Source: Ustilaginoidea virens
Taxonomy: Eukaryota; Ascomycota; Sordariomycetes; Hypocreales; Clavicipitaceae
Length of the DNA: 64,000 nt
NCBI RefSeq assembly: GCF_000687475.1
Contig: NC_057318.1
Span: 3,410,001 to 3,474,000, forward strand
Direction of reading: 5' to 3'
Shown here: in pieces, positions 43,331 through 61,111 of the stretch
Layout of the letters: every line of letters begins with the position of its first letter
How positions within the stretch are numbered: the first letter of the stretch is position 1
Notes under the pieces: model-generated
The model's input: the letters and a program-made list of their open reading frames with translations, nothing else
What the model was told of the DNA's origin: nothing
Database searches by the model: none
Made by a program: the position numbers and the translations under genes

Positions 43331-44027
43331 GTGGTGAACAGGGTTAGGATGCCTCTATAAAATTGTTGCCATCAAGTGGTGGATCCTTACCAATTCTGGT
43401 AAGGCGCCATGATTGACGTCGACATAGTGCGCCAATTCTGTGCCTTTGTAATAATGATTTATTTAGTCTTTAGCAGGGCATAGCGGAGCTCTGCTGGTTG
43501 GTGGCGCTGATATGGTGCGACGAATGACGCTAAACCAAAACGCCACATCGGTAGGGAAAAAGGATTAGTAAGAAGAGTTAGAAGAAGAAGAAGAAGAAGA
43601 AGAAGAAGAAGAAGAAGAAGAAGAAGAAGAAACAAAGAAACTCAGCCACAATGGCATGGCACCATTCCCCTTGTTGGACATCGGATAGATATTTGGGTAG
43701 TTCCCATGTGTTGATTAAAGTTATTCCGACCCGTCATGGTCTTGTCTTCTCTTCCCTCCAAGCCTTTGGCCTGTATGCTAGTTTCTTCATCTGTCATCAT
43801 CTGTCATCATCGTCATCATCAATATATCCATATCATCTTGCCTTGACCACTCCCACCACTCGACTCAACAAGGAACTCCCTCAGGACGAACAACGAACAA
43901 CGTATCTAAAAATAAAAGGAGAACGATTTCCCGGCAGGCATCATTCTACTTTTCAGACGTAGATAACCTCCAGTCGAGAGGAAGGAGGGTATATCGCTTC
44001 CCAAGTTGTCGTACTACAATCATCAAA
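43331..44027. other. Transposon edge, GAA microsatellite and promoter of the secreted protein gene
   Basis: Includes a (GAA)n run of about 15 units at 43583-43631 and AT/CAT-rich DNA. No gene is supported. Confidence 0.5.
43583..43631 (+). repeat. (GAA)n microsatellite
   Basis: About 15 perfect GAA units between the retroelement relic and the secreted protein gene. GAA runs can form triplex DNA and are mutation-prone. Confidence 0.9.
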
Positions 44028-45047
44028 ATGCTACAGTCACTTCTGCTTGCGGCTCTAGCTTGTCGGGCCTTTGCCACTCCGTGCCATGCTCCCGAGCACT
44101 GGCTTTACAGCAGTGACTTGGACAACAAGACCCTGGACCTCCTGGATCGACCTGACATTGCCGGCGTCCAATTGCTCTACTCCTGGAGATCCCTCGAATC
44201 TGCAAAAGACGATTATGCCGAAGGCTTTCAGCTGTTGCAAGGAGACCTTGACAAGGTCCAAGCCAAGGGCAAGAAGGTCTGGATCCAGATTCAGGACAGG
44301 ACTTTCGACCCCGCAAGAGACGCAGTGCCCAGGTATATGAAAACGCCAGAGTACAGGAACGGCAGTTCGCCGCAGGGTGAAGCCGACGCGCGCGGCGTTT
44401 TCGAGCCGCAAGGCCACGTGGCCGCGCACTGGGTTCCGGCCGTGCGCAAGCGCTTCCAGTCACTGCTAGATGCCCTGGGCAAAAAGTTTGATGGCAAGAT
44501 TCACGGCATCAATCTTCCGGAGACTGCCATCGACGTCACGCCCAGCTCTCCGCAGAACCACGGGTTTACCTTCGAGGCGTACTTCGACGCCGCGCTCGAA
44601 AACGCGAAACACGCCTCAAGCGTCTTCCGCAAGACGTTTGCGGTCCAGTACGTCAACTACTGGCCCGGCGCCAATGGCAACGACGACATCGTTGCCGCCA
44701 GGAAATACTTTACGAGGTCGTTTGAGTTTTATGCTCGCAACCACATCGGTGTCGGTGGGCCGGATCTTGTTCCTGAGAATGCTCAAGGTCACCCGCCCTA
44801 CGCGGGTGCAATGAAGAACTCATACCCCTTCATTCATGACTATGGCAAGAGAGTCCCCATTAGCGTCATGTCTGCGCAAGAGCCTGATTTCTGCCTCACC
44901 AACGGTCAAAACGGCACCAGGTTCAAGAAGGACGACTTTGTAAAGATTGGCGCATATCTCCACGCCCGAATTATCTTCTGGGCGACAATGGCGCCTTGGT
45001 TGAATGGGGCGGATGTTCCCTATACCGGGGATTTTTGCAAACCTTGA
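44028..45047 (+). CDS. Secreted protein, possible (beta/alpha)8 glycoside-hydrolase-like, function unknown
   Basis: Intronless, 339 residues, with a clear signal peptide (MLQSLLLAALACRAFATPC). I do not recognise a named family with confidence. Features suggesting a TIM-barrel hydrolase are GVQLLYSWRSLE near the start, KGKKVWIQIQDRTF, KIHGINLPETAID with a Glu in a strand-like context, and later FAVQYVNYWPG and YGKRVPISVMSAQEP. These alternate strand and helix in the usual way. Three Asn-X-Ser/Thr sites (NKT, NGS, NGT) fit secretion. The gene sits between retroelement relics and AT-rich DNA, immediately left of the DIT cluster. Recent acquisition or unusual mobility is possible but not shown. 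Confidence 0.75.
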   Translation: MLQSLLLAALACRAFATPCHAPEHWLYSSDLDNKTLDLLDRPDIAGVQLLYSWRSLESAKDDYAEGFQLLQGDLDKVQAKGKKVWIQIQDRTFDPARDAVPRYMKTPEYRNGSSPQGEADARGVFEPQGHVAAHWVPAVRKRFQSLLDALGKKFDGKIHGINLPETAIDVTPSSPQNHGFTFEAYFDAALENAKHASSVFRKTFAVQYVNYWPGANGNDDIVAARKYFTRSFEFYARNHIGVGGPDLVPENAQGHPPYAGAMKNSYPFIHDYGKRVPISVMSAQEPDFCLTNGQNGTRFKKDDFVKIGAYLHARIIFWATMAPWLNGADVPYTGDFCKP

Positions 45048-46416: not shown

Positions 46417-48227
46417 TTATCTTGACCGTGGCACCCGTTGCTCGAAAACGAGACGCAGATTTCTCGGACAAAGCGGCCCAGCCTGCCATGACAAATTAGA
46501 ATAGAGCGGCTCCCCCCCCCCCCCCCCCCCCTTTTTTTTTTTTTTTCATCAAACGTACCGGCGTCATTCTATCCGGCCACGTGGGATCAAGTTTCCATTG
46601 CAAGCTCCGCAAGAGGACGTACAAGGTTGCCTTCAGCTGCAGGAGCGCAAACCTCTCCCCAAGACATGCCCTCTGACCGCCGTGAAAGGATATAAACTCT
46701 GCGCGAGACCGTCGGCGTCTGTACTCCTTCTGGATGTCTTGGCATGTAGTCCCCCATCTGGAGGGCCGAAAGGCATCGGCATCAGCACCCCAGGCTCCTG
46801 GGTCGCGATTGGTGGAGTAGCAGTTGTAGCCGACATAAGTGCCTTGTGGGAGGTGGATTCTTCCTCCAAGAAGAATGGGCTGGGCGACTTGCCGGTTGAC
46901 CAGTTGACCTATGGGAGGGAAGAGACGGAGGCTTTCATAGACGACGGCTGACAGCAAGGGTATGGAATGGAGAGATTCTTGCGTCACGTCGTCGAGGGGC
47001 GAATCTTCGAGTGAGAGCTCTTTGTGTAATTGCTCTTGGATATGCTGTGCAAGAGAGACGGGGTCAGACAAGCAGGGAGAGTGGTTAGGCGCCATGCTTT
47101 CGTTTCTCTCTTCTTTTTTTATTTTATTTTTTTTTTTTTTAATTTGGGCGGGAGGATTTGGTTTTGTCAAAGAATGGGGCACTTTACGGGATGTTTGGCC
47201 AGCAAGTACAGCGTGGAAATGATGGCCAGCTGCGGATTTTCCTGCCCGGCCACAAACAGGACAGTGACGTTGTCCCGGAACTGCTTCTCCGTAAGGGTGC
47301 CGCTCCGTCTCGCTTCCAAGAGGGCGGTGGTAAGGGGTTGGCGAGAGGAATCAAACTTGCTGTCCTGGCTGGCCTGGTCCAAGGCCAGCACCAACTGATC
47401 GGTAAAATGGGAGGCGAGCCATCGAGCGCGACGGCGACTGGGAAGCCCTAGACGGTCGAGGAAGGGAAAGTTCAAGAAGACGGGCTTGAAGATTTCCCTT
47501 TTGATGCGGTACTGGATCTGGTGGAGGTAGGCGTCGGAGGATTCCAGCGTCTGTTGCCATCTGGTCAGCAAGGGGGTCACATGAGATGTCGTGGAGCTCT
47601 TGGGTGTGCTGTCGTGGCTCTCTCGAAAGCGTTTGGGCGTCTCCATACCCCAAAGTCGACGCCGAAATGGACCTGGGCAAAGTTGGCAATGGTGTATCTC
47701 TGTATGCAAGACTGGACACCAACGCCGCCGTGGCCGGCCGCGGCCTGGGCCTCGACGAGGACACGGCACAGCTTGCGGGCATTGACGAGCAGGACGCCGA
47801 GGTCGGGGGCGGCCTGCAAGCCCGGCTTGATGACGTGTCTGTAGGTGTGCCAAGGCTGACCGCGGCTGGAGATGATGTTGTCGCCCAGCAGGGAGGCGAG
47901 GACGCTGTGGGGGATCTTGTTCTGGTTGCCGCTCTTCTGATATACGGACTCGTGCCTGAAGACGTCGGCCAGAAGCGACGGCTGGTGAAGGAGGATGTTC
48001 CACCGCGAGGCAAAGAAGAGCTTGACGGCGCCGTGCTTGCGCAGAGGCCCGTCTATGTACCTGGCGAAGATGTCCTGCTGGTCGACGTCCTTGACGAGAG
48101 GGAGAAGGGCCACCCAGAAGGGGATGGTAGGGATGCCGCGAGTGTCTGGCAAGGGGAAGAAGAGACGGACGACGGCGTATGCGGCGGCGGCGGCCAAAGG
48201 GGCTAGGAGCAGGACAGTCACGGTCAT
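46417..48227 (-). CDS. dit2: DIT2-like cytochrome P450 (CYP56 type)
   Basis: Four exons: 48227-47649, 47550-47188, 47044-46559 and 46482-46417; 497 residues, all introns phase 0. The start was chosen at MTVTVLLLAPLAAAAAYAVV, a membrane anchor, over a further Met 35 codons upstream. Then GIPTIPFWVALLPL, HGAVKLFFASRWNIL, KSGNQNKIPHS, the I-helix VAGQENPQ, ExxR in YESLRLFPP, the heme loop FHGGQRACLGERF, and in the last small exon AGPLCPRNLRL. These segments follow yeast Dit2 closely. Dit2 oxidatively couples N-formyl-tyrosine into N,N'-bisformyl dityrosine for the ascospore wall. It is transcribed divergently from the DIT1 homologue, as in yeast. The canonical I-helix Thr is replaced by Asn, as expected for this family. 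Confidence 0.93.
46483..46558 (-). other. dit2 last intron with poly-C/poly-T block
   Basis: Donor GTACGT and acceptor GGCAG on the minus strand. The plus strand has about 21 C followed by about 16 T. Reading through without splicing gives a nonsense Lys/Gly tail, while splicing gives the P450 C-terminus. Confidence 0.85.
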
Positions 48228-49505
48228 TGCAACTTCTTGCCTATCGGGCAAAATACGAAAAAGACAAATCAACATTGGGAGAAGGAGAAGAAGAAGAGGA
48301 AGAAGAAGAAGGTTCTCCGACCAGAAAAACACCTAAGAAAATAAACCAGATGAGGCCAATTCAAATTAACTCTCGCGAGGTATTTCATAACCCCGACAGT
48401 AACCTTGCACAGTATCTTGTACAGTATGGAGTACAAGCCACAGCCAACAAGCCAGCAGGGCAATGGCCAACTTGGCAAAGTGCACAGTTTCAAGTCGCAC
48501 CATGCTCATACGAGAGCACGCGACGCGACAGGATGATGTGCCTGTCACCTGGACCCGTGTAACTTTTAGCTACATCACGAGCGGCAAAAAAAGAAAGGAT
48601 GGAAAAAAAATAAAAAAACAAGAAACAAAAGGGCGACCGCAGCGTCTCGCACGTTTTCATTCCCCACAACTCGACTCCATAATGTAGAACGATCAAGGAT
48701 GATGACATGACAGCTGGAATCGATACATCTAGGTACGTGACAGGGATGTAACAATAAGCGGGCGAGTGCGATGCACAAAAGTCCATCGAGTTATACAAAA
48801 GTCACACAAGGAAGAACGCCAAGTTATACTTGGGTTCTGTCCTGGTAGAGGACGACAAACGCAGACGACAATATTTCATGATGTTGCTTATGATCTACCC
48901 CCCTTGCTACCTGCTACCTTCTTGTTTTGGTATAAAAAAGAGAGAGAAAAAAAAGAGAATTTCAGCTCGCGATGGCTCGTGAGTAAAAAAAAAAAAAAAA
49001 AGGGCAAAAAAGGCAAAAAAAAAGAAGGAAAAAAAAAACAACTTGCTCAAATACCGCGGCACTAGCCAGAAGCCCCCGGATCCAACATTTAGACCCAACA
49101 CGAACGGGATCCATCAGCATCACGGCCCAGTTCTCAGCAGCAGGGGCAGAGGAGCTGCAAGGCTTGCTTCGTCCAAAAGCATCGAAAGCTTACGCTGCCA
49201 GCTCCCTTTGGAAAATAACTCCGCAAAAGAAATCCCGGATAAGGACAGGGAAGAAGAAGAAGAAGAAGAAGAAGAAGAAGAAAAAAGCCTGCTACAGGGG
49301 AAAACAAAGGCAGGAAAATCAAAGTTATCAACCCATCACCCTGACTTCCAACCTTGACGGCGAGTATCCGAGCCGGCTCTTCTTCTCCAACGTTACATCC
49401 ATGGTCCCGACTCCCGACTCCCGACTCCTGCTTCTTACCACTCGCACTCACGTCAAAAGTTGATTTGACATTGCGTCCAGACTGCCGAGCACCGAGTGAA
49501 ACAGA
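48228..49505. promoter_or_regulatory. Bidirectional promoter region of dit2 and dit1
   Basis: The 1.28 kb between the two divergent start codons. It holds GAA runs (48275-48312, 49253-49283), several A-runs (48583-48630, 48984-49040) and a TATGGAGTAC motif near 48424, close to the recurrent TACGGAGTA. Such a shared region would allow joint regulation, as for yeast DIT1/DIT2 during sporulation. I could not identify a specific operator. Confidence 0.6.
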
Positions 49506-49705
49506 ATGCACCCTTCCTCCCCCGCCCCGGGCGTGCATTTGGAACCCAGTCCAGCAAAAGCCTCCGTGCACAAACGCTTCGTGGCAGGCTTTGTCCGACG
49601 CCCCTGCGGTGATCTCATCGACTGCTTCGGCCCGTCCCAAGCCCAGGTCAACTCGGCGTGGTCTCAGATCCGGCAGCACGCCTTGCAGAGCCCGAGTAGC
49701 ACCAC

Positions 49706-49740
<35 letters not shown>

Positions 49741-51606
49741 GAGCGGCGTCTCTGACAACCGCCCACTTTGAGCTTGAGCTTGAGCTTGGGCTTGGGCTTG
49801 GGCTTGGGCTTGGGCTGGGCCCTGGGCTGAACGCCACGACGGCGCCCCAAGCACAGCCCAGCAAGCCCAAGCAATCCTACTCGTTGTATCAGGCGTACCG
49901 GCCCACGTCTCAGCAGTTTGTCGGCATCATCCTACAATCAGGACCCAGCCGCGAGCACGACGTCTTCTTCTCCCATCTGCTTCTGTCAAGCCTGCATGTC
50001 GACACCGCGGTGGACCACGACGTGCTCCGCGGCCTCGACAACAACGTCCACGTCCTCACAGATTCCATCGTCGACCTGTTTGACCGGCGTCTCCGATATG
50101 TTGCCAAGAACGACAAGTGGTCGTCGGGCGGCAAGGACGTGTTCCGCCAAAACGTCTACTCCTTCACCTCGCGAGGCGCAATGGTGGAATTCTGTCTGCC
50201 CGCCTTCCCCTGCAAGTCGTCCAGCCTGAGCAAAGTCTTGTCCGCGGCCCCGGACCGAGGCGAGTGCCTGGCCCTGACCAACATGCACGACTTTCTGCAC
50301 GACGTGGAAGCCATCTATTCTCCGGGGGCGAAGCTCTGGATCATTAGCGACGGACACGTCTTTAGCGACTGCAGTGAGTTTGTCCTTTGCCTCGTTTCCG
50401 TTCATATATGTATATATGTATATATATATATATATATATTTATACACACACACATTAAATCTCTGTGCAATGGGCCCAAAAAAGAGAACAAAAGAAGAAG
50501 AAAAAAAAGCCCCAAGAGAAAGAAAAACCTTACTGAAGCGAAAATCTGCTAGTCGGTGTGGACGACGATGTGGTTGACGAGTACGCATCGCAGCTCAAGG
50601 CCATGAACGACCGCATCGTGGCGCTCAGAGACGGCAAGCACAGGATCGGCTTCAAGTCCCTGCCCGACTTGTTCAGCTGCGGTGCCCCCGACGGCAGCCT
50701 GGACGACACTTCCAAGATCGCCAAGGACCTGCCCGAGCTGGACCACCACATCTCCACCAAGATGAACCCCGAAGCCGAACTTTGCCGGCAAGTCTTGACG
50801 CTGGGATTCCAGCTCGACCAGGCAGAGTTGCGAAGCATCCTCTCGTCCCAGGACGCCGCCATGATTGCCCTCTACCGCGGATTCTCAAAGTTCATGCTGG
50901 AGGATCTCACCACGAACCAGTACACGCGCCATCTGAACCGTAGCCAGCTGAGGAAAAAATCGGCCAAGGTGGCCTTTGAGATGATTCAGGTATGAGCATG
51001 CCAGCATTGTCTTTTTTTTTTTTTTTTTTTTATCTCCTTCTCCCCACGACAGGTACAGCGTTGACGTGAACTGGATTTGGATGCCCAGCGCAACCAAGCT
51101 TACTCGAATCTTGTGCAAATGCTCTTCCCGCACCACGTGCGTCTGTCTATCCACGCGTAAGTCGAAACCGCTATGCGAGATTTCCCCCCCCGTTCTTTTT
51201 TCCCTATGCACCCTCTCATTACCCCACCTACCTACCTATATATGTGCATATGTGAAAATCATCAGTATGCACATGTTATACACGGTGCTTTGAGTTTTCC
51301 ACTGAAACCCTCCCTAGCCATGACAATTCTGGCCCCAAATTCGGAATCCAGATGCTGGGAAAAGGAATCATACCCACCGATACGCTCCCCCCTGACGGCA
51401 AGGACGTCAACTGCTGCGACCAGCTGCATGTCCCTACGCCCTGGCACAACTGCGTCGTGGAGATGAGCGGACACGCCAATCTGTACATAACAAAGTCCGG
51501 CATCGCGCGACGGGCATTATCGTCGGTGGACTTGTCGGGCGGGATTGTGGAGTCTCCGGATCAGGGCCAGTATGTTTATATGGAGCGATCATGTAACTCT
51601 TTGTAA
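49506..51606 (+). CDS. dit1: DIT1-like enzyme, isocyanide synthase family (DIT1/PvcA)
   Basis: Four exons: 49506-50373, 50553-50989, 51089-51156 and 51318-51606; 553 residues (yeast Dit1: 536). The N-terminal 130 residues contain a poly-Ala run and a Glu-Leu/Gly-Leu repeat. The DIT1/PvcA domain follows: FSHLLLSSLHVD, DSIVDLFDRRLRYVAKNDKW, VEFCLPAFPCKSSSLSKVL, RGECLALTNMHDFLHDV, IYSPGAKLWIISDGHVFSD, then RNQAYSNLVQMLFPHHVRLS, AHDNSGPKFGIQML and TPWHNCVVE. The tyrosine-derived product is N-formyl-tyrosine for the spore wall in yeast; bacterial PvcA/IsnA relatives and fungal homologues make isocyanides from Tyr or Trp. Which chemistry applies here cannot be decided from sequence alone. Introns 1 and 2 hold TA and T runs. 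The gene is divergent from dit2 and ends near the Atg22-like gene, which converges on it. Confidence 0.93.
49700..49820 (+). repeat. In-frame GCC and GCTTGG repeats in the dit1 N-terminus
   Basis: About 11 GCC triplets (about 49707-49740) encode an alanine run. A six-base repeat (GCTTGA changing to GCTTGG, about 49770-49815) encodes alternating Glu-Leu then Gly-Leu. Both keep frame and sit before the conserved domain. Confidence 0.9.
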
Positions 51607-51842
51607 ATTTGTTGGAGCCGGAACCGTCTTGCCAGGGCTGAGGTTTTTTTTTTTTTTTTGGTTCCTTTTCTTTCCCTTTATCCCCGCATTTAGATTCTTT
51701 TGAACTTTTCCAGTTTTTTTTCCTTCTTCCAAGCTTCTATTTTTTTTTTTTAAATTTTCTATTTTCATACTTTTTTCTGTTCGTCCTGCAAACATCAGCA
51801 ACGAAATCTAGTGTGGCTTGAATAAACAATATCCTGACGTCT
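51607..51842. other. Short convergent 3' region between dit1 and the Atg22-like gene
   Basis: T-rich 3' flanks with several T-runs (51644-51659, 51739-51750). No gene seen. Confidence 0.5.
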
Positions 51843-53829
51843 CTACGCCGTCGCATTCTTTGAGACATTTCTGCTGTCAACTCTTGTGAAACCAGGTTGT
51901 GCCTGTCCGCTGGGACTCGACGCCAAGGGCACTTCGGCATCCCGCATCCCCTGATCAACATCTGTCCAGACATACAACGCCAACGCCACAAGCATGAGCA
52001 GCAGATTAGGAATCATGGGGAACCGGAGGTTATGCGTCCTATTCTGGATAACGCCCTGCACGAGGGGATTAATCCACCCCGTGGCAAGGTCCAGCGTAAT
52101 TTCCAGGCCAAAAAACGCGGCCTCGGACCCCTTTGGAATGAGCGATGCGTAAAGCACTCGGTTCAGCGACCTCAGCGCACTGCTTGTGCTCATGAAGAGG
52201 AAATCGGCGACCCAGAATTCAGCCTGATGCTTGTACCCGATGCTCACGTTCTTGCTTATTCCAATGCAGCCCCAGAAGACGCACAGGATGTTGACAGCGA
52301 GGAATAGATACGCCCAGCTCTTGATGTGTAACTTGGCGTAGCGGAAACTAAAAAGCCAGCCGAGAGAGCCCATGCATGCGAAAATGACCATCATGAAGGT
52401 GTAGACGGTGTAGACGTCGCTCCCTCGCTGGATGCCTGTCGTTTCGAGAAAAAGCGCGCCAAGGAGCTGGAGAAAGTTGCTGTAGCCAGTGTTCCAAAGG
52501 ACCCAGCCTATGCACAGCTTGAAGGCGTTGGGATACTTGCGTATGGAGCCAATGAGTTTGAGCCCTGGGCACCGCGTAACGGTCAGTAGTCTGGCGTAGA
52601 TTGGAAACGGCGAGTGGTAGGGACGTTGCGCGTACAAGTGCGCAATGGGAGCAGAAATATGCTCTTTCCTTTGGGCCTTTCGGCACCGGGAACATTTGGT
52701 AGCAGAATATGACCGATTATCGCGCAGACGACTGCCAGGAAAAGTTAGCACAGTAGTGGGAGCAGGGGTCTGGGAATCCTTTTTTGGGTGAAATGTTCTT
52801 ACTGGTAAGGCATCCGCCTACGGTAATGGCGAGCAGGAAGCTGTTTAAAAATAACGGTTAAAAAAAAAAAAAGCCGCCATGTGTATTTTGCCGATTGCCT
52901 CACTTGAAATATCCTTCCGTGACATAGCTTCCTCGAGTATAGGTAATGATGACTCCGATAAGAAGCGCCAGTATCGCACCGAGATTACCAGATACCAAAC
53001 CAAGAACACTGACAAGACTACCTTGGATCCAGGTCTGGTTGTCTGAGGTGGCCGTCTGTTCTTGGTCCTGAAGTCGGGCTCGCTTACTGAACCAACCGAC
53101 CGACCTCATGAAAATCGGGATGTACGACGCTTCGATAACGGTGTACACACCAGACACAGTTGAAATGACGACATAAAGGGTAGACAGGGCGTTCAGATGG
53201 CTATAGTCGTTGCCTGTCAGCCCAGCAAATGGCAGGGCCAGGGCGCCAAAGAGATAGATGGAGCACATCATCATAGTTTTGCGGTAGTTGGAGAAGTCGG
53301 CCAGACCCGATGCCAGGATAGATACAACGCCCTCGGTGGCTCGGCTGATGGAACGGAGGTACAGCCTTTGCATGCGTTTGTCAGACATCCGTGGCAAGAC
53401 TGGGAGGGAAATGGCAAGACTCACAGGTAGCTGAGATAGTCGACATCTCTGCCTCCCAGCTTGACCGCACATGAGATGGCACCTCTTCGGGCACATGGCT
53501 TATTGGTGCCGGGAATGTGTCCTACAGCATTGGCCGCCGATTGAATGCTGGCCGTGACATAGCTATTCACCATGCCATTGGTCGGGCCGGTCTGGTCATG
53601 GCACTGTTGTTTAGTGGTATCCTGCCTGGTGTTGTGCACGAGGGTTAAGGACGTCTCTCACGGAAAAGCACAGAATGAGCCAAGCCCAGAGGGCCTTTTT
53701 GCTGCTCAGCGGCGACGTCGTTTCGTCGTGGGATGCCTCGGCGGAATCCAGGTCGTCCTCGGTTGGATGGTGTTGGCTGACAGCTGCAGCTGCAGCCTTG
53801 TGAATTATTGCAGCATCGTCCTGACTCAT
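51843..53829 (-). CDS. Atg22-like major facilitator transporter
   Basis: Six exons: 53829-53662, 53603-53425, 53365-52904, 52840-52803 (only 38 nt), 52731-52636 and 52564-51843; 554 residues. Family features: TGPTNGMVNSYVTASIQSAA, NKPCARRGAISCAV, LYLRSISRATEGVVSILASG, FSNYRKTMMM, then SLVSVLGLVSGNLGAI and, near the C-terminus, KGSEAAFFGLEITLDLATGW and GVIQNRTHNLRFPMIPN. About 12 membrane segments. Yeast Atg22 exports amino acids (Leu, Ile, Tyr) from the vacuole after autophagy. Its relatives in filamentous fungi are more numerous, and this is likely a cluster-specific paralogue. Placement between dit1 and the DHA1 exporter suggests transport of tyrosine or a pathway intermediate (inference). 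All junction phases agree. Confidence 0.9.
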
Positions 53830-54530
53830 GTCTGCGGGTGTGCCTGCGGGTGTGTCTGTCCGTGTGTCTGTCTGCCGTCTGTCTCTAAAGCTTTGTTCGA
53901 TTATCGCAGCCGGGATGAGCGCTTGTCAGCAAAGAGAATTATCACGGGGACAGGGGACGCAAGAGCAAGAGCAAGAGCAGGAGCAAGTGCGAAAGTCCAT
54001 GTTATGCTATGTGAGTCAATTTCTCTAGAGTCAAGTCTACTCGGCATAAAAGAGTTGAAAGTCTGGTAGCAAGTGAAATTGACCTCCAGTCGCACGCAAC
54101 AAGGCGAGCTAATTCCTGCAGAAACTAAAAACCGCGATCATGTGGAGTCGCCTGGGTACTACGGAGAACTTGGGTACCTTGGTACCTACTTAGTCTTGGT
54201 GCAGCTGCCAGGATCATGTGGGGCAATGCAATAAGTCAGGCACAAGTGACATAAAGTTGGCAAGAACAGTTGAAACAAAAAAAGGTCCTTCCAGGTACCG
54301 GCCACTGGCCATGATGGCACTAATGCAAAGACAAGGGCAGGGGGCAGGGGGCAGGGGGCAGAGGGCAAGGGGCTGGGGGAAGGATTCTAAACTTGCTCAT
54401 TCTCCCGCAGCCCTGCAGATGCGCCGCGCCGCAGGGGACTTTTTACGGAACCATTGTCTCCTAACCGCCGCGGCTGGTGGATCGTGGCGAATCCGTTTGG
54501 CGGTGATGCGATGCAATAGAAAATGAATTC

Positions 54531-54569
<39 letters not shown>

Positions 54570-54607
54570 TTTTTAAAAAATAGAAACAAGGGGGGCGGGG
54601 GGATGGG

Positions 54608-54642
<35 letters not shown>

Positions 54643-54820
54643 CCCGTTGCAAACCCGTGCCATTCATTGTCCACTGCTCGCTCGTGACATGTCTGTCGAC
54701 GGCACCTGCAATCGAACAGCCACAACTCCCAACGTCAAACATCATCGCCGAAAATCATCTCGCCATCCTTGACTTCTTTCCGTTGGTTCATGTCGACAGT
54801 CCTCTTTGTACGCCGTGGAC
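53830..54820. promoter_or_regulatory. Divergent promoter region of the two cluster transporters
   Basis: About 1 kb between the Atg22-like gene (minus) and the DHA1 exporter (plus). It contains an AAGAGC-type purine repeat (53959-53990), AGGTACCT-like motifs (54150-54190), GGGGCA repeats (54336-54370), an A-run of about 34 (54534-54567) and a GA-dinucleotide run (54611-54640). The arrangement mirrors the dit2/dit1 divergent pair. No gene seen. Confidence 0.5.
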
Positions 54821-56900
54821 ATGCAACGCTCGCCATGCGCACAGCCCCATCCCTCACCCGTAGCAAGTAGTCATCATCAACATGATGATGATGATGATCC
54901 GGAGGCGATCCGTGTTCGAGATAGAGTCCAACAGCACACCGCCACTTCAATGTCTTCAGCCGACTCGGGCGTCCTTGACGCAACGGCGCCGAAGCTGCCT
55001 GCATCACCGCCACCCGTCTACTGCGCCTTTCCGCCCGCCCGTCGCCGCTTCATTCTGGCGGTAATCACCTTGGCTGGGATGCTTGGCCCCCTCTCTGGAG
55101 CTATATATCTCCCCGTGCTGCCGCTGCTGGAAAGAGAATTCAATGTCGGCAGCACGAGCATCAATGCCACGGTTTCCGTATTCATGGTCACCTTTGCCAT
55201 TGCCGTGAGTTTGCCATGCCATGCCATGCCATGCCATGCCATGCCCCGCCGCGTCTGCGTTCGCGCTGCATCCGCGTTGCATCCGCGTTGCATTCGCGTT
55301 GCGCTATAGAATAAACAGCTCTGCTGACATGACATGACGGAACGTGACGGACGTGAAATTAGCCATTGTTCTGGTCCAGTTTTGCTGATTATGGCGGACG
55401 AAGACCGCTCTACATTGTTTCCTTGGCCATCTTCATAGCCTCAAATCTCCTTCTGGCGGTCTTGCCCAAAAACTACGGCGCCTTGTTGATTCTGCGCATC
55501 GTCCATGCCTTTGGCTCCGCGGCCGTCGTTTCCATGGGCGCAGGCACAGTAGCAGATGTGAGTCATCCCCCCCCCCCTGTAGCTGAGCTCTGATCTGAGC
55601 TACCGAGCCTGGCTGATGGAACGATAGATGACGGAGCCAAAGAAGCGTGCAAGTGCAATGTCGGTATTTCTACTCGGACCGCAATGTGGTCCTGTCCTTG
55701 GTCCGGTGCTGGGATCGGCCCTGGCTGGCCAGCTCAATTGGAGATGGATCCCAGGCTTCCTAGGTTCGTCACCCTCCGCAACGCACCTGAAACCGAACCG
55801 CGACTGCGACTGGAAGTCAGGAAAGAAAAGGAGAGTGCAGGAGTGGTTGACCATTGAGCTGTAGCGGTGTTTTGCTTCGTCTTATGGCTCATCATCGTGC
55901 TGATGCTGCCCGAAACACTGCGATATCGCGTGGGCAACGGAGAGATGTACAAGCATCAAAGCTGGGTACTGCTTCCCCCAAGGCTGTCCTCCGCCATGGT
56001 GCCGGAATCCGAGCGTGGCCCCAAGCCCCCCAAGCCGACCTTGCTGGGATACTGGAAGCTCTTCTCGTACCCCCCAATTGGCATCGTGACGGTCAACACC
56101 GCCATTCTCTACTCAACATACTTCGCCATGGCGGTAGCACTGCCGCATGCCCTGGAGAATGTGTACCACTGGTCTACGACAGAGGTTGGTCTCGGATACA
56201 TCGCCGTTGGCATTGCCCTCATGATCGGTTCGCTCGTCGGGGGTAGGCTGAGCGACTGGCGTCGCAAGAACAAGGCAGCAGCGTCTTCGGATGGAACGGT
56301 CGAGCCTGAAAGCAGGTTGTACGACCAGATTTGGGGAGTGATGTTGTGTGTGGCTGGCACAGTCATGTTTGGGTGGTTTGTGCAAAACTCGCTGCATGTT
56401 TCGTCTGTCATAATAGCGACCTTTCTGAGTAAGTGCTCTGAACCGACAGAGGTCCTCCCTTGCCCCCCTCCTCCTTTCCTTTCCTTTCCTTTCCTCTCCC
56501 TTCTCTTGCTTCCTTCATTCGTTGGCGGAAATGGGCTGATGCGTGTTTTGCAGCCGGTTTCGGCATGAGTTGGGTGTTCGTTGCAACTACTGCGTTTCTT
56601 GGCGAATGTGCACCGCTACAGGCTGCTGGCGCCTTTGCTCTCGGCAACATGCTTCGCAACCCCGGGGCGGCCATTGCTTCTGTCGTGTATCCTCCCTTGG
56701 TAGCGAGGATGGGACTGGCGTGGTTCTTTACCGGCTTTGCCCTGCTGGATCTTGTTGTTGTGGGAGGTGCAGTTATAGGTACGTCTAGTCTGCTACCTGC
56801 ACTTGAAGCCGAGTATCTCGTGCTGACGATATCATGGGTAGTCTTGCGAGTCAAGGGCGAGCACTGGCGGAGGAAAAAGGCAGGCAGTGCTGCAAAATAA
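54821..56900 (+). CDS. DHA1-family drug:H+ antiporter, Dtr1/Qdr-like
   Basis: Exons 54821-55204, 55363-55557, 55628-55763, 55865-56428 and 56554-56900. The last exon may contain a further 63 bp intron (56779-56841) that keeps frame either way. About 541 residues from this ATG, or 43 fewer from the Met at 54950, which may be the real start. Twelve membrane segments; motif A as SSFADYGGRRPLY between helices 2 and 3; antiporter motif C as GPQCGPVLGPVLGSALAG; the central loop carries SWVLLPP. In yeast, Dtr1 of this family exports bisformyl dityrosine from the prospore, and Qdr1-3 confer drug resistance. Next to DIT1/DIT2 homologues, a dityrosine-type or isocyanide-product exporter is the natural reading. 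Confidence 0.88.
55207..55246 (+). repeat. ATGCC pentanucleotide repeat in intron 1 of the DHA1 gene
   Basis: Consecutive GCCAT units just downstream of the first donor (55205), followed by GCATCCGC/GCGTTGC repeats up to about 55310. Purely intronic. Confidence 0.85.
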
Positions 56901-58483: not shown

Positions 58484-58729
58484 TTAAAACTTGTGCAGCA
58501 GGCAGTTGACGAAGCCATCGTCGCAGCAGTTGATTGAGATGACGCGGCCGGAGCAGTCATCGCTGTCGTGGGTGAGTTCGCAAAAGCCCGTCTTTGCCTG
58601 GCATGCCGCAGGCGTTTTGATGTCGCGGAAGTTGGGGAGTCGGCAGGGGTATGCGTCGGCGCAGGTGCCCGCGCTGGCCAGGCCGGCGAGGCCGGCTGCC
58701 ACAAGCAGCATCATGGTTTGGTGAAGCAT
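58484..58729 (-). CDS. Small secreted cysteine-rich protein, 8 Cys
   Basis: Single exon, 81 residues. Signal peptide of about 20 residues (MLHQTMMLLVAAGLAGLASA), then a 61-residue mature part with eight cysteines, including one adjacent pair (INCC). No named family recognised. The even cysteine number suggests a disulfide-stabilised extracellular protein such as an effector or antimicrobial peptide (inference). A TATA element lies about 150 bp upstream, which supports expression. Confidence 0.75.
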   Translation of the reverse strand: MLHQTMMLLVAAGLAGLASAGTCADAYPCRLPNFRDIKTPAACQAKTGFCELTHDSDDCSGRVISINCCDDGFVNCLLHKF

Positions 58730-58879
58730 GTTGACGTTTGGTGGAGCGTGGTGATGATGATGATGATGATGATGCAGTCGAAAACGATGGTTTCTCGTAT
58801 GTGGAACTGACGGAAGACCGGCTTGTGGTGTTTTTGGCCTTGGGACTTTCGTGATGGGGAGTCGACCGGGTCCGTCCTC

Positions 58880-58887
58880 TTTTTATA
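58880..58887 (-). promoter_or_regulatory. Probable TATA box of the 58.5 kb small secreted protein gene
   Basis: Minus strand TATAAAAA about 150 bp upstream of the ATG at 58729. Between them an (ATG)n run lies at about 58749-58775. Confidence 0.5.
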
Positions 58888-60770
58888 ACCTGCAACGCCC
58901 ACGGAACTTACGGCCCCTTAGTAATCGCTGCATGACTCTTGCTCGTCTCTCACCATGCGATGATGCCTTCGTAAGCCCCAATCTCTGGGATGACCGTGAG
59001 TGGACCACAGGCCCTTACAGTGGCGAGGCTTGCGTCCATTCGGCCAAATTTAAACTTTGGACGTTTAAACTTTGGACGGGCCTGTTTCAACACGTCAGCC
59101 CTGCCAGCTCGAGCCGGAAATGCGGATATGTATGTATATACTACTATGCTCGGGGGCCTGTCTCTGTTTGGGTCCCAACATGCCGGTTGCCACGCGATTG
59201 ACAAGGCCGGCAAGAAAGATGGCGGTGGCGCGGCTACATGGGCCGAAGCGGACCAGTAATACGGTAGTCCGTAGTAATGCGCTTTGATGGTGCTCGAGGC
59301 TTTGGGACCGTCATTTCTTACTGTCCCACGTTTTCTTCTCTTGTCTCCTCCCCCCCCCTTTCCCACCCCGCCCCCCCTTCAGGCCAGCAAATATAGTATA
59401 GTGTCGCGCCTGTTCGTCGCATTATTGGATCCCCGCATCGTCGGCTCGCCACAGGGGTTGCAGGGGCTGAGCCCACCAAGCCATATTCATATTCGTGGGC
59501 CGTGGCCGCCTGGCCCTCGTCGTGGCTACCAATGCTGCAACAAAACTGCATCGGGGAGAATAGTATGAGCCAGCCAGTTTCTCTGAGCGATGGAAACAAA
59601 GCGTCTTGAGGGCACCAGACAGCACCATGAGTCCATGACCCACGCACCCACCCTTTCGTTCGTTCCGTCGTCCTTCTTTGTAGCCTGGTGGCTGGCTGGC
59701 AGCTCGACTCAGTGAGCGGGGAGCCGTTCCATTTAGCGCGAGTTTAGTGCATCTCGAAGAAATTTTGATTATGTTAGCGTTGGAAGTCCCTTTGGCCAGA
59801 GGCAAAACAGGCTACGACTTACGACGATCAACAAGAGCAACCTTTTGCATCCAGTGCTGCGCCCCCCTTGGGCCCGCCCTCTGCTGGATCGAGATTGCGA
59901 AATGAGCAGACAACTTGCCTGGGGGAAAGTCTGTGGCGCTCGCCGCTGGGCCGGTATTATTTTACACTTTTACACATTTACAAGTGCGGAAGAGGCCAGG
60001 CAACGACGACTTTATTTCTGAGCATCTCGCTCGGCTCTAGGGAACCCGTCAGGACGTGGCCCTGATTGGGGGACGGGACCTGCCAGGGCAGGAGCGACTG
60101 CGTTCTGGTCGGTACATACCAGACATGTACCCACCCAATCGTTGTGGCCTTGGCAGCCAGGCGCCAAGGCCCAAATCCGTGACTTGACATAGTCTACGAC
60201 TTCGGACAAGGAGCCGCCTGTCAAGCCGGGAATCGAGCCGTATGCCCGAGTTGACGGCAGCTATTCTGGACAGTGTATGGAGGACATGGCCGCTGTTCGC
60301 AGGGTCGCGTTTGCCAGAAGGAGAACAGCTGGACTACGCTGCTGATGCGTGTTTCTGCCATTCGGGCGCTGCACGGAGTAGGTTAGTGCCGACTGGCCGC
60401 TGCAGCGAGGTAAGTAAGCCACACCCCCAACCCCCCGGCCGCTCGGGCTTCGCGATGCCGACATGGCATGTATAAAGTCGACACGGCTGGTTAGTGCTTG
60501 TGGCCTTTCCCCTTCCGCACCAGTCAAATCAATAACTTCTGCTTCTTGATAGAACAACGTACGTATATCGATACGCCTCGCCTGCTTGCTGTTGAGCTGG
60601 ACAAATGCTGCAAACGCGCATCGATACGCCGCTTACAAGTATGCTTGACGGCTCCCACACCCATCGTGCCTCACCAACAGGCCGCTCCGTTTCCAGTCCA
60701 TCCTCTCCAAGAACCGGGTCTTGCCGCAACCAAAATCAAAACCGCAACCACAAACAAGCACACCAGCCAA
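58888..60770. other. Intergenic region between the two small secreted protein genes
   Basis: About 1.9 kb without a convincing gene. A short direct repeat of TTTAAACTTTGGACG occurs twice at about 59049-59080. The far end holds the promoter of the next gene. Confidence 0.5.
60471..60477 (+). promoter_or_regulatory. Probable TATA box of the 60.8 kb small secreted protein gene
   Basis: TATAAAG about 300 bp upstream of the ATG at 60772, compatible with a long pyrimidine/CA-rich 5' leader ending in CACACCAGCCAAA. Confidence 0.45.
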
Positions 60771-60771
60771 A

Positions 60772-61111
60772 ATGAAGACCTTTGCTACTCTCCTGGCTGT
60801 CCTCGGAGCCTTCACCGCCCTCGCAGCAGGACTCGAGATAAACCCGCGGTCTTGTACCACCAAAGCTGATGCTCTCAAGCAGGCTCAAAATGCAGGGTGC
60901 AAGAACGCTTCCGCCAAGTGCAATTCATACGGCTGCCAATGCGTCTGGGGGTGCTTTTCCCCGATAGGTGGCGGCCGCCTTACGTTGTGGACAAATCGAT
61001 GTGGTACGAAGACGGTTCAGTATGGCTCAGACCTGCAGGCCATGGTAAGATTCTTCCCACGCCCTTTTTTCTCCCCTTCGGTGCGCTGCTAATCTAGGCA
61101 TGCAGTGCTAG
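60772..61111 (+). CDS. Small secreted cysteine-rich protein, 8 Cys, with a 6-nt last exon
   Basis: Exon 1 60772-61044; proposed exon 2 61106-61111 (TGC TAG); 92 residues. Signal peptide MKTFATLLAVLGAFTALAAG, then a 72-residue mature part. Without splicing the frame runs into a Phe/Pro-rich nonsense tail. Splicing GTAAGA to GCATGCAG adds only Cys-stop and brings the cysteine count to eight. An alternative acceptor at 61098 (AATCTAG) would give a longer, less convincing tail. Motifs such as CNSYGCQCVWGC and NRCGTKTVQYG suggest a compact disulfide fold. Family not recognised. Probably a secreted effector or antimicrobial protein (inference). Confidence 0.7.

Follow-up and report, generated by a model that had tools for sequence, protein, structure and literature searches.

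A dit gene cluster including an Atg22-family carrier gene in the rice false smut pathogen Ustilaginoidea virens

Four adjacent genes of Ustilaginoidea virens, found at positions 46417-56900 of the window (the whole stretch of 64,000 nucleotides that was analysed), encode a Dit2-like P450, a Dit1-like enzyme, an Atg22-family carrier and a DTR1-type exporter. What does such a block make, and does the carrier take part in the same task as its neighbours? The kind of cluster is already known, and the U. virens locus adds another copy of an old ascomycete dit cluster.

Gene content and organization of the locus

Gene models were built by hand from the window sequence (Table 1). All introns (16 of 16) are of the GT-AG type, and frameshifts and internal stops are absent from all four models. 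The idea that dit2 or the carrier gene are frameshifted or pseudogenes was discarded, because the apparent changes of frame correspond to GT-AG introns; in the case of the carrier it is also dismissed by the letter-for-letter identity of the model to the public protein UV8b_03838 (P0121). The exporter model initially covered 54950-56900 (+), with 6 exons and 477 aa. Since the public record (P0241) contains this model whole, after 43 extra N-terminal residues, the start of the gene was moved upstream.

Table 1. Features of the dit locus of U. virens (positions in the window)
Feature	Position	Strand	Description
dit2, P450 of putative CYP56 type	48227-46417	-	4 exons, 497 aa
dit2 exons	48227-47649, 47550-47188, 47044-46559, 46482-46417	-	spliced model without stops
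dit2/dit1 divergent promoter region	48228-49505		1,278 bp between start codons
dit1, putative single-domain PF05141 isocyanide synthase-like / N-formyl-tyrosine-forming enzyme	49506-51606	+	4 exons, 553 aa
dit1 exons	49506-50373, 50553-50989, 51089-51156, 51318-51606	+
dit-linked Atg22-like carrier (PF11700), UV8b_03838	53829-51843	-	6 exons, 550 aa
Atg22-like exons	53829-53662, 53591-53425, 53365-52904, 52840-52803, 52731-52636, 52564-51843	-
Atg22-like/MFS divergent promoter region	53830-54820		991 bp
DTR1-type MFS exporter, UV8b_03839	54821-56900	+	520 aa in public record

The original prediction of four genes arranged in two divergent pairs is confirmed. Dit2 and dit1 are head to head, as are the carrier and exporter genes, and dit1 and the carrier gene converge. 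All are intact and encode the expected Pfam domains (Dit1, PF05141, 291 bits; P450, PF00067, 184 bits; carrier, PF11700, 466 bits; MFS, PF07690, 157 bits). The yeast-type meiotic MSE motif is not enriched in the dit2-dit1 interval, where 2 sites were found against 1.6 expected; MSE-like sites were found neither between the carrier and MFS genes (0.8 expected) nor between dit1 and the carrier gene. Inverted repeats in both divergent promoters are just short scattered pairs. The neighbouring tag UV8b_03835 is named in one paper as a putative-effector control.

The two enzymes and the exporter

PF05141 spans residues 217-525 of Dit1 and is the only domain of the protein, the TauD dioxygenase of XanB-type enzymes being absent. 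The best 120 of 475 Dit1 matches are PF05141 proteins, many of which are named DIT1 or dityrosine biosynthesis protein, and a dioxygenase domain is listed for none of these 120. Thirty-three of the 120 listed proteins, picked by hand, were aligned (A2), and all the 58 columns invariant across these homologues are conserved in U. virens Dit1. Relatives of solved structure are the isonitrile synthases 9dhm and 9dh4 (tyrosine/tryptophan) and PvcA (3e59). An ICS-TauD gene of U. virens lies apart from the cluster, on C4, and its match to Dit1 is confined to a single stretch of exon (34%, 157 residues). A cluster of the xan type was ruled out, as Dit1 has no fused TauD and the TauD-containing locus is that on C4.

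Dit2 features the haem motif FISFHGGQRACLG at residue 431, an ExxR motif (ESLR) at 351 and an I-helix tract, AGQENP, at 294, which lacks the usual threonine. The match to yeast Dit2, for which at least 40% would be expected of a CYP56 member, is 40.8% over 471 residues, with a provisional and possibly inexact yeast sequence as reference. A close Dit2 paralogue was not found in the U. virens genome, the next best match scoring 79 bits. Of the proposed DIT2/CYP56 type, the CYP56-like features are in place; membership of CYP56 partly rests on the provisional yeast sequence.

Several relatives of the exporter, among the matches listed, bear the names Dityrosine transporter 1 or DTR1. In alignments of 451-507 residues, the protein shares 44-48% identity with four relatives from yeasts, namely Candida tropicalis, Cyberlindnera (both named Dityrosine transporter 1), Wickerhamomyces and Millerozyma, whereas the best U. 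virens paralogue aligned over nearly full length is 31% identical. By the names of its relatives, and by an identity closer to yeast dityrosine transporters than to its own paralogues, the exporter is of the DTR1 type, in keeping with its initial description as Dtr1/Qdr-like. Its best relative of solved structure is Quinidine resistance protein 2 (142 bits). One stretch of 157 residues of another U. virens MFS protein is 42% identical to the cluster MFS.

The carrier and its neighbours in other fungi

The label Atg22-like is correct as a family name, the PF11700 match of the carrier being well above the cut-off (24.1 bits), and is misleading as to function, as the protein does not group with canonical Atg22. 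Both the Pfam score and the database names of relatives, such as autophagy-related protein 22, would fit an autophagy Atg22 sitting by chance beside dit genes. Against this, U. virens hosts another PF11700 gene, which scores 605 bits, and a third Atg22-family gene, both on C2. BLAST was run against the 120 listed Atg22-like proteins and the two C2 copies, with results printed for 21 of the former and for the copies: the carrier aligns to the C2 copies over 139-159 residues only, at 25-26% identity, versus 41% over 529 residues to Ashbya AAR080W. Similarly, a provisional sequence of yeast Atg22 matches the C2 gene along 538 residues with 259 bits, and the carrier in two stretches only, one of 115 residues (52 bits) and one of 227 (40 bits). 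Identity with autophagy Atg22 was rejected on these three grounds, and is highly improbable.

Hand-picked subsets of the 120 listed Atg22-like proteins were used for alignment A1 (35 sequences) and for a tree (59 sequences, the linked P0136 being omitted). In the tree, the C2 copies fall outside the carrier group, on saturated branches, and cluster-linked carriers are found on the yeast side and on the filamentous side alike. Judging from these comparisons, the carrier looks like a member of a subfamily separate from canonical autophagy Atg22. The AlphaFold2 model is helical (pLDDT 81.9), and nearly all its best 50 Foldseek matches are MFS-type carriers, which share 10-16% identity and give no clue to the substrate. 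A search by sequence for solved structures gave 0 matches at E 0.001.

Association of the genes in other fungi was monitored by equal contig size between entries of the three lists of 120 matches, and by locus tags, rather than by direct reading of gene order. Among the matches listed, Dit1 and the carrier share 13 contigs, Dit1 and MFS 25, the carrier and MFS 26 (one of which is from U. virens itself), and all three 7. Locus tags of these matches, compared by eye, are 1-3 apart in all 9 Dit1/carrier pairs with both tags, 1-2 apart in 6 of 6 carrier/MFS pairs (U. virens included), and at most 3 apart in 10 of 11 Dit1/MFS pairs, the eleventh being 7 apart. The partners thus share contigs in many filamentous fungi, and the carrier and the exporter do so in yeasts too; the linked entries belong to yeasts and to several filamentous classes. 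On the yeast side, the carrier is linked, among the matches listed, with MFS only and never with Dit1. The finding that 88 of the 120 listed carriers share no contig among the matches listed is uninformative at that scope. Dit1 and MFS matches listed for Claviceps citrina, Claviceps africana and Zalerion maritima are on different contigs, because of either assembly breaks or lost linkage. Pairwise distances are moderately correlated for Dit1 and the carrier (r 0.47 over 13 contigs), and r is 0.92 over 26 contigs for the carrier and MFS, both values being confounded by species history.

Proposed pathway, alternatives and known systems

The U. virens locus probably represents an old type of ascomycete cluster, which many moulds, like yeasts, likely employ for making and exporting spore-wall dityrosine, with the carrier as fourth component. 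By analogy with yeast, Dit1 would convert L-tyrosine to N-formyl-tyrosine, perhaps via tyrosine isonitrile; Dit2 would couple the phenols of two N-formyl-tyrosines, yielding N,N'-bisformyl-dityrosine, which the DTR1-type MFS would export to the spore wall. To judge from its family, the carrier may transport either tyrosine or some intermediate through an inner membrane, for example that of the vacuole. Both the predicted gene identities and the general dityrosine or isocyanide reading of the block are upheld.

A secreted or copper-binding isocyanide is an unlikely product. In that case Dit1 would form tyrosine isonitrile, Dit2 would perform a xanthocillin-style coupling, and both carriers would serve export. 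The nearest solved relatives of Dit1 are indeed isonitrile synthases, the xanthocillin P450 XanG is described as a Dit2 homologue, and stable tyrosine isonitrile is reported from the culture supernatant of Phycomyces, which has a Dit1-like protein (2026 paper). However, the lack of a XanB-type TauD in Dit1, the separate ICS-TauD gene on C4 and the absence of an isocyanide hydratase among the four genes all argue against such a product, and PvcA is reported not to rescue loss of yeast Dit1, the product of which is most likely formyl-tyrosine.

As to the carrier gene, it might be a mere neighbour with an amino-acid transport job of its own, held in place by slow rearrangement, the functional unit being dit1-dit2-dtr1. 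S. cerevisiae makes dityrosine and is not known to have a cluster-linked Atg22, and Remersonia, Mycothermus and Corynascus, in which the tags of Dit1 and MFS differ by 2, are all missing among the Atg22 matches listed. Yet the linkage to Dit1 or MFS, recurring from yeasts to filamentous classes, seems too ancient to be accounted for by slow rearrangement alone, the carrier subfamily is distinct from canonical Atg22, and co-regulation is reported in Pichia stipitis (PMC2784038). A mere neighbour is less likely than not.

What looks new here, on sequence grounds, is that the cluster "Atg22" may be an overlooked fourth component, distinct from autophagy Atg22. We tentatively propose that the carrier is a dedicated and ancient part of fungal dityrosine (or tyrosine-isonitrile) biosynthesis, associated with DIT1, DIT2 and DTR1 since before the yeast/filamentous split. 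It may have been overlooked because S. cerevisiae, in which the pathway was worked out, is not known to have this dit-linked carrier. As a dedicated component, it would likely deliver vacuolar tyrosine to Dit1 or shift an intermediate over an inner membrane. S. pombe Atg22p is reported to function in uptake into vacuoles, a direction opposite to that needed for providing the cytosol with tyrosine, which counts against this role. The carrier gene is a testable fourth gene of the dit cluster, and, were the carrier to affect spore dityrosine, the textbook pathway based on S. cerevisiae would miss a part.

AUT4 is the old name of ATG22, and P. stipitis AUT4 is by its name a candidate member of the carrier subfamily. 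The suggestion that the four-gene set is an undescribed variant went too far: DIT2-DIT1-DTR1 with AUT4 were printed for P. (Scheffersomyces) stipitis in 2009 (PMC2784038), dit1/dit2 of filamentous fungi have been described, and further fungi too show the partners together. In P. stipitis, as in U. virens, all four gene types are co-located, and DIT2 and DIT1 are divergent; they are also described as co-regulated. Unlike in U. virens, DTR1 is in tandem with DIT1, and a chitinase is also named. No literature naming U. virens together with dityrosine, or pairing Atg22 with dityrosine or with dit1, was found in our searches, which synonyms such as the AUT4 of the P. stipitis paper escape. Publications on U. 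virens and isocyanides include a genome note on Conoideocrella.

Up to 30% of Ascomycetes are reported to carry pairs of dit1 and dit2 (Nickles 2023, PMC10153163), and in the same source the presence of dityrosine in walls of filamentous fungi is termed unclear. To these clusters, the product of which is putative in filamentous fungi, U. virens adds an intact, chromosome-level example in a rice pathogen. The dit superfamily of isocyanide synthase clusters defined in that source similarly combines a PF05141 enzyme and a P450 in divergent orientation; Clan 2 covers Eurotiomycetes and Sordariomycetes, and flanking genes often have common promoter motifs. Atg22 and DTR1 are not named in the consulted main text of that preprint. 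Clustered DIT1 and DIT2 orthologues are found in another filamentous fungus, Aspergillus nidulans (ditA and CYP56B1, PMC5863032), the relevant passage making no mention of carriers. The A. fumigatus xan cluster (PMC5974471) also associates an ICS domain with a Dit2-like P450 acting on tyrosine, but XanB has the dioxygenase domain that U. virens Dit1 lacks. In the six-gene DIT cluster of Coccidioides (PMC12077801) DIT1, DIT2 and DTR1 are adjacent, and their deletion is reported to result in thinner arthroconidial walls; unlike in U. virens, three more genes are present, one labelled cutinase, which are linked to pigment and not to wall thickness. Coccidioides also has a member of the carrier subfamily (P0154, among the matches listed).

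Gene models and protein assignments

Spliced gene models have been drawn up after reading both strands of the window, which lies on contig C3 (C3:3410001-3474000) of the 37.16 Mb, 8-contig genome of the rice false smut fungus U. virens (family Clavicipitaceae). The original prediction of a four-gene cluster is correct: its outer coordinates are exactly those of the two outer stop codons, and spliced models and Pfam domains agree with it. All 16 introns are of the GT-AG type, none of the four models has internal stops, and the four proteins score far over cut-off for PF05141, PF00067, PF11700 and PF07690. Homopolymer runs of 14 or more (e.g., 20 C adjoining 15 T; 20 T; 33 A) are confined to introns and spacers.

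Features of the cluster and flanking open frames (window coordinates)
Feature	Coordinates	Strand	Description
Open frame upstream of dit2	43782-45047	+	421 codons, secreted-looking start
dit2	48227-46417	-	4 exons, spliced model
dit1	49506-51606	+	4 exons, spliced model
Atg22-like gene	53829-51843	-	6 exons, spliced model
MFS gene	54950 (public record start 54821) to 56900	+	6 exons, spliced model
Downstream open frame	58484-58882	-	small cysteine-containing, secreted-looking protein
Downstream open frame	60649-61092	+	small cysteine-containing, secreted-looking protein

Dit2 features the haem, ExxR and I-helix motifs, the last reading AGQENP and lacking the usual threonine. Identity to an approximate yeast Dit2 sequence is 40.8% over 471 residues, only just over the 40% line quoted for P450 families; membership in CYP56 is likely. 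A close paralogue of this P450 was not found elsewhere in the genome, where the next best match scores 79 bits.

The best 120 of 475 Dit1 matches in the protein database are all PF05141 proteins, led by Conoideocrella (60% identity) and followed by Claviceps, Epichloe, Pochonia, Metarhizium, Beauveria, on to Eurotiomycetes. U. virens Dit1 retains all 58 invariant columns in an alignment of 33 of the 120 listed homologues. Solved structures matching at E up to 1 are three, the isonitrile synthase sequences 9dhm and 9dh4, and PvcA. The public dit1 model may be missing or very different in length, because a U. virens match of about 100%, expected for the spliced model, is absent among the best 120 of 475. 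Exon 1 (49506-50373) encodes poly-alanine and leucine-glycine repeats, derived from GCC and TTGGGC repeats, in a variable-looking stretch N-terminal to the catalytic domain. A Collariella relative (P0070) carries a second domain, PF04145, of a copper transporter family, and is either a fusion or a gene-model error. Only one other PF05141 gene was found in the genome, an isocyanide synthase of the XanB type (C4:4250728-4251692), followed in the next exon by a TauD dioxygenase domain; it is a system separate from the dit1 of the window.

Several relatives of the MFS exporter among the best 120 of 643 matches, yeasts included, are annotated as Dityrosine transporter 1, as DTR1 or as putative dityrosine transporter. 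Identity is 44-48% to four yeast proteins, and 31% to the best U. virens paralogue aligned over nearly full length; another U. virens MFS reaches 42%, in a 157-residue stretch only. Among solved proteins, Quinidine resistance protein 2 is the best match.

The two downstream proteins have no Pfam match over the curated cut-off, and the upstream frame none at E 0.01. UV8b_03835, used in one paper as a putative effector control, probably adjoins dit2, its place in the window being guessed from tag order.

A separate subfamily of Atg22-like carriers

The carrier model equals the public record UV8b_03838 across 550 residues. At least three PF11700 genes have been found in U. virens. The one at C2:2586928 scores 605 bits to PF11700 and is, judging by likeness to an approximate yeast Atg22 sequence, the canonical Atg22 (ATG22 being the gene formerly called AUT4). 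BLAST aligns the cluster carrier to the two copies on C2 over only 139-159 residues, at 25-26% identity; relatives of the carrier are 19-25% identical to these copies in alignments of 400 or more residues, and reach 32% at most where the aligned stretch is short. Identity of the cluster carrier to Eremothecium gossypii AAR080W, by contrast, is 41% over 529 residues, and the best 120 of 127 matches are all PF11700 proteins, 39-100% identical. In a tree of 59 of the 120 rows and the two C2 copies, built by a quick method with SH-aLRT support only, the latter fall outside the carrier relatives, on saturated branches. The AlphaFold2 model (35 sequences, pLDDT 81.9) is a bundle of long helices, and Foldseek matches the predicted fold to MFS carriers. 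The cluster carrier is therefore a subfamily of its own.

The Favolaschia claudopus protein P0191, from a basidiomycete, is placed within the Xylaria group of this subfamily, by either contamination or horizontal transfer. P0199 and P0206, from Monosporascus and Lasiosphaeris, sit together on one very long branch, of 2.06 changes per column, despite linkage to MFS or Dit1, which points to fast evolution of Atg22-like proteins in some Sordariomycetes.

Linkage in other fungi

Foreign gene order was deduced by assuming a common contig for rows of different best-120 lists having equal longest-contig sizes, an equality that is not proof. Common contigs number 13 for Dit1 and Atg22-like proteins, 25 for Dit1 and MFS, 26 for Atg22-like and MFS (one being U. 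virens itself), and 7 for all three; those of 100 kb or less are 8/13, 7/25 and 11/26 of the pairs, respectively. Locus-tag distances were read by eye, only where both rows have tags. Dit1 and Atg22-like tags are at most 3 apart in 9/9 pairs (Conoideocrella, two Claviceps, Hirsutella, two Ophiocordyceps, Emydomyces, Caeruleum, Pyrenula), Atg22-like and MFS tags at most 2 apart in 6/6, U. virens included, and Dit1 and MFS tags at most 3 apart in 10/11, the eleventh being 7 apart. Claviceps maximensis tags 000875, 000874 and 000873 follow the U. virens order. Against this, Dit1 and MFS rows are on separate contigs in three species (Claviceps citrina, Claviceps africana, Zalerion maritima), reflecting either assembly breaks or lost linkage.

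Overall, a contig in common with a listed Dit1 or MFS was seen for 32 of the 120 Atg22-like rows (U. virens among them), and 31 of these are in the tree. Six, of which Wickerhamomyces ciferrii is the one named, are on the yeast side, where the listed partner is MFS, not Dit1; the remaining ones are scattered across lichen fungi, Eurotiomycetes, Leotiomycetes and Sordariomycetes. Linked rows are 0/7 in the Dothideomycete-Xylaria group and 0/3 in another group of the tree. The linkage label is somewhat clustered: it changes 15 times, shuffled labels change 20.7 times on average, and 4 of 500 shuffles are as low. The other 88 rows are uninformative, not negative, because each list holds the best 120 matches. 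The carrier subfamily travels with DIT1, DIT2 and DTR1 in many Ascomycetes.

Possible pathway and known systems

By analogy with yeast, Dit1 would convert tyrosine to formyl-tyrosine, Dit2 would couple the latter, and Dtr1 would export the product to the spore wall. Most simply, the Atg22-like carrier may supply vacuolar tyrosine or move an intermediate, because family members handle amino acids at the vacuole and Dit1 uses tyrosine as its substrate. The paper on S. pombe Atg22p cites work on the S. cerevisiae protein as an amino-acid recycler, but itself reports uptake into vacuoles, the opposite direction to tyrosine supply. The cluster carrier is, moreover, far from canonical Atg22, and the vacuole analogy is weak. 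As to the product, a dityrosine-like wall polymer or a secreted isocyanide had been proposed, and this reading is sound. Yeast Dit1 has been argued not to be an isocyanide synthase (Basiony 2020); a 2026 paper, on the other hand, detects tyrosine isonitrile in Phycomyces and attributes it to the Dit1-like protein of this fungus.

In the literature searched, no paper was found treating Atg22 together with dityrosine or dit1, or U. virens together with dityrosine. The suggestion of an undescribed variant is too strong for the cluster, which is of a known kind. The narrower point deserving attention is the dit-linked carrier subfamily, undiscussed as a pathway part as far as searches show. According to a preprint (Nickles 2023, PMC10153163), 17.1% of Ascomycete species have dit1/2 co-located and another 11.2% have them in fragmented form; three clans are distinguished, and the product is unproven outside yeasts. 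DIT1 is head to head with DIT2 in every DIT2-bearing genome among 372 budding yeasts surveyed. In Aspergillus nidulans, ditA and CYP56B1 are clustered (PMC5863032). In Coccidioides, deletion of DIT1, DIT2 and DTR1 results in thinner arthroconidial walls, and three further cluster genes are linked to pigment (PMC12077801). In Pichia stipitis, DIT2-DIT1-DTR1 are listed as co-regulated with AUT4, itself co-located (PMC2784038).
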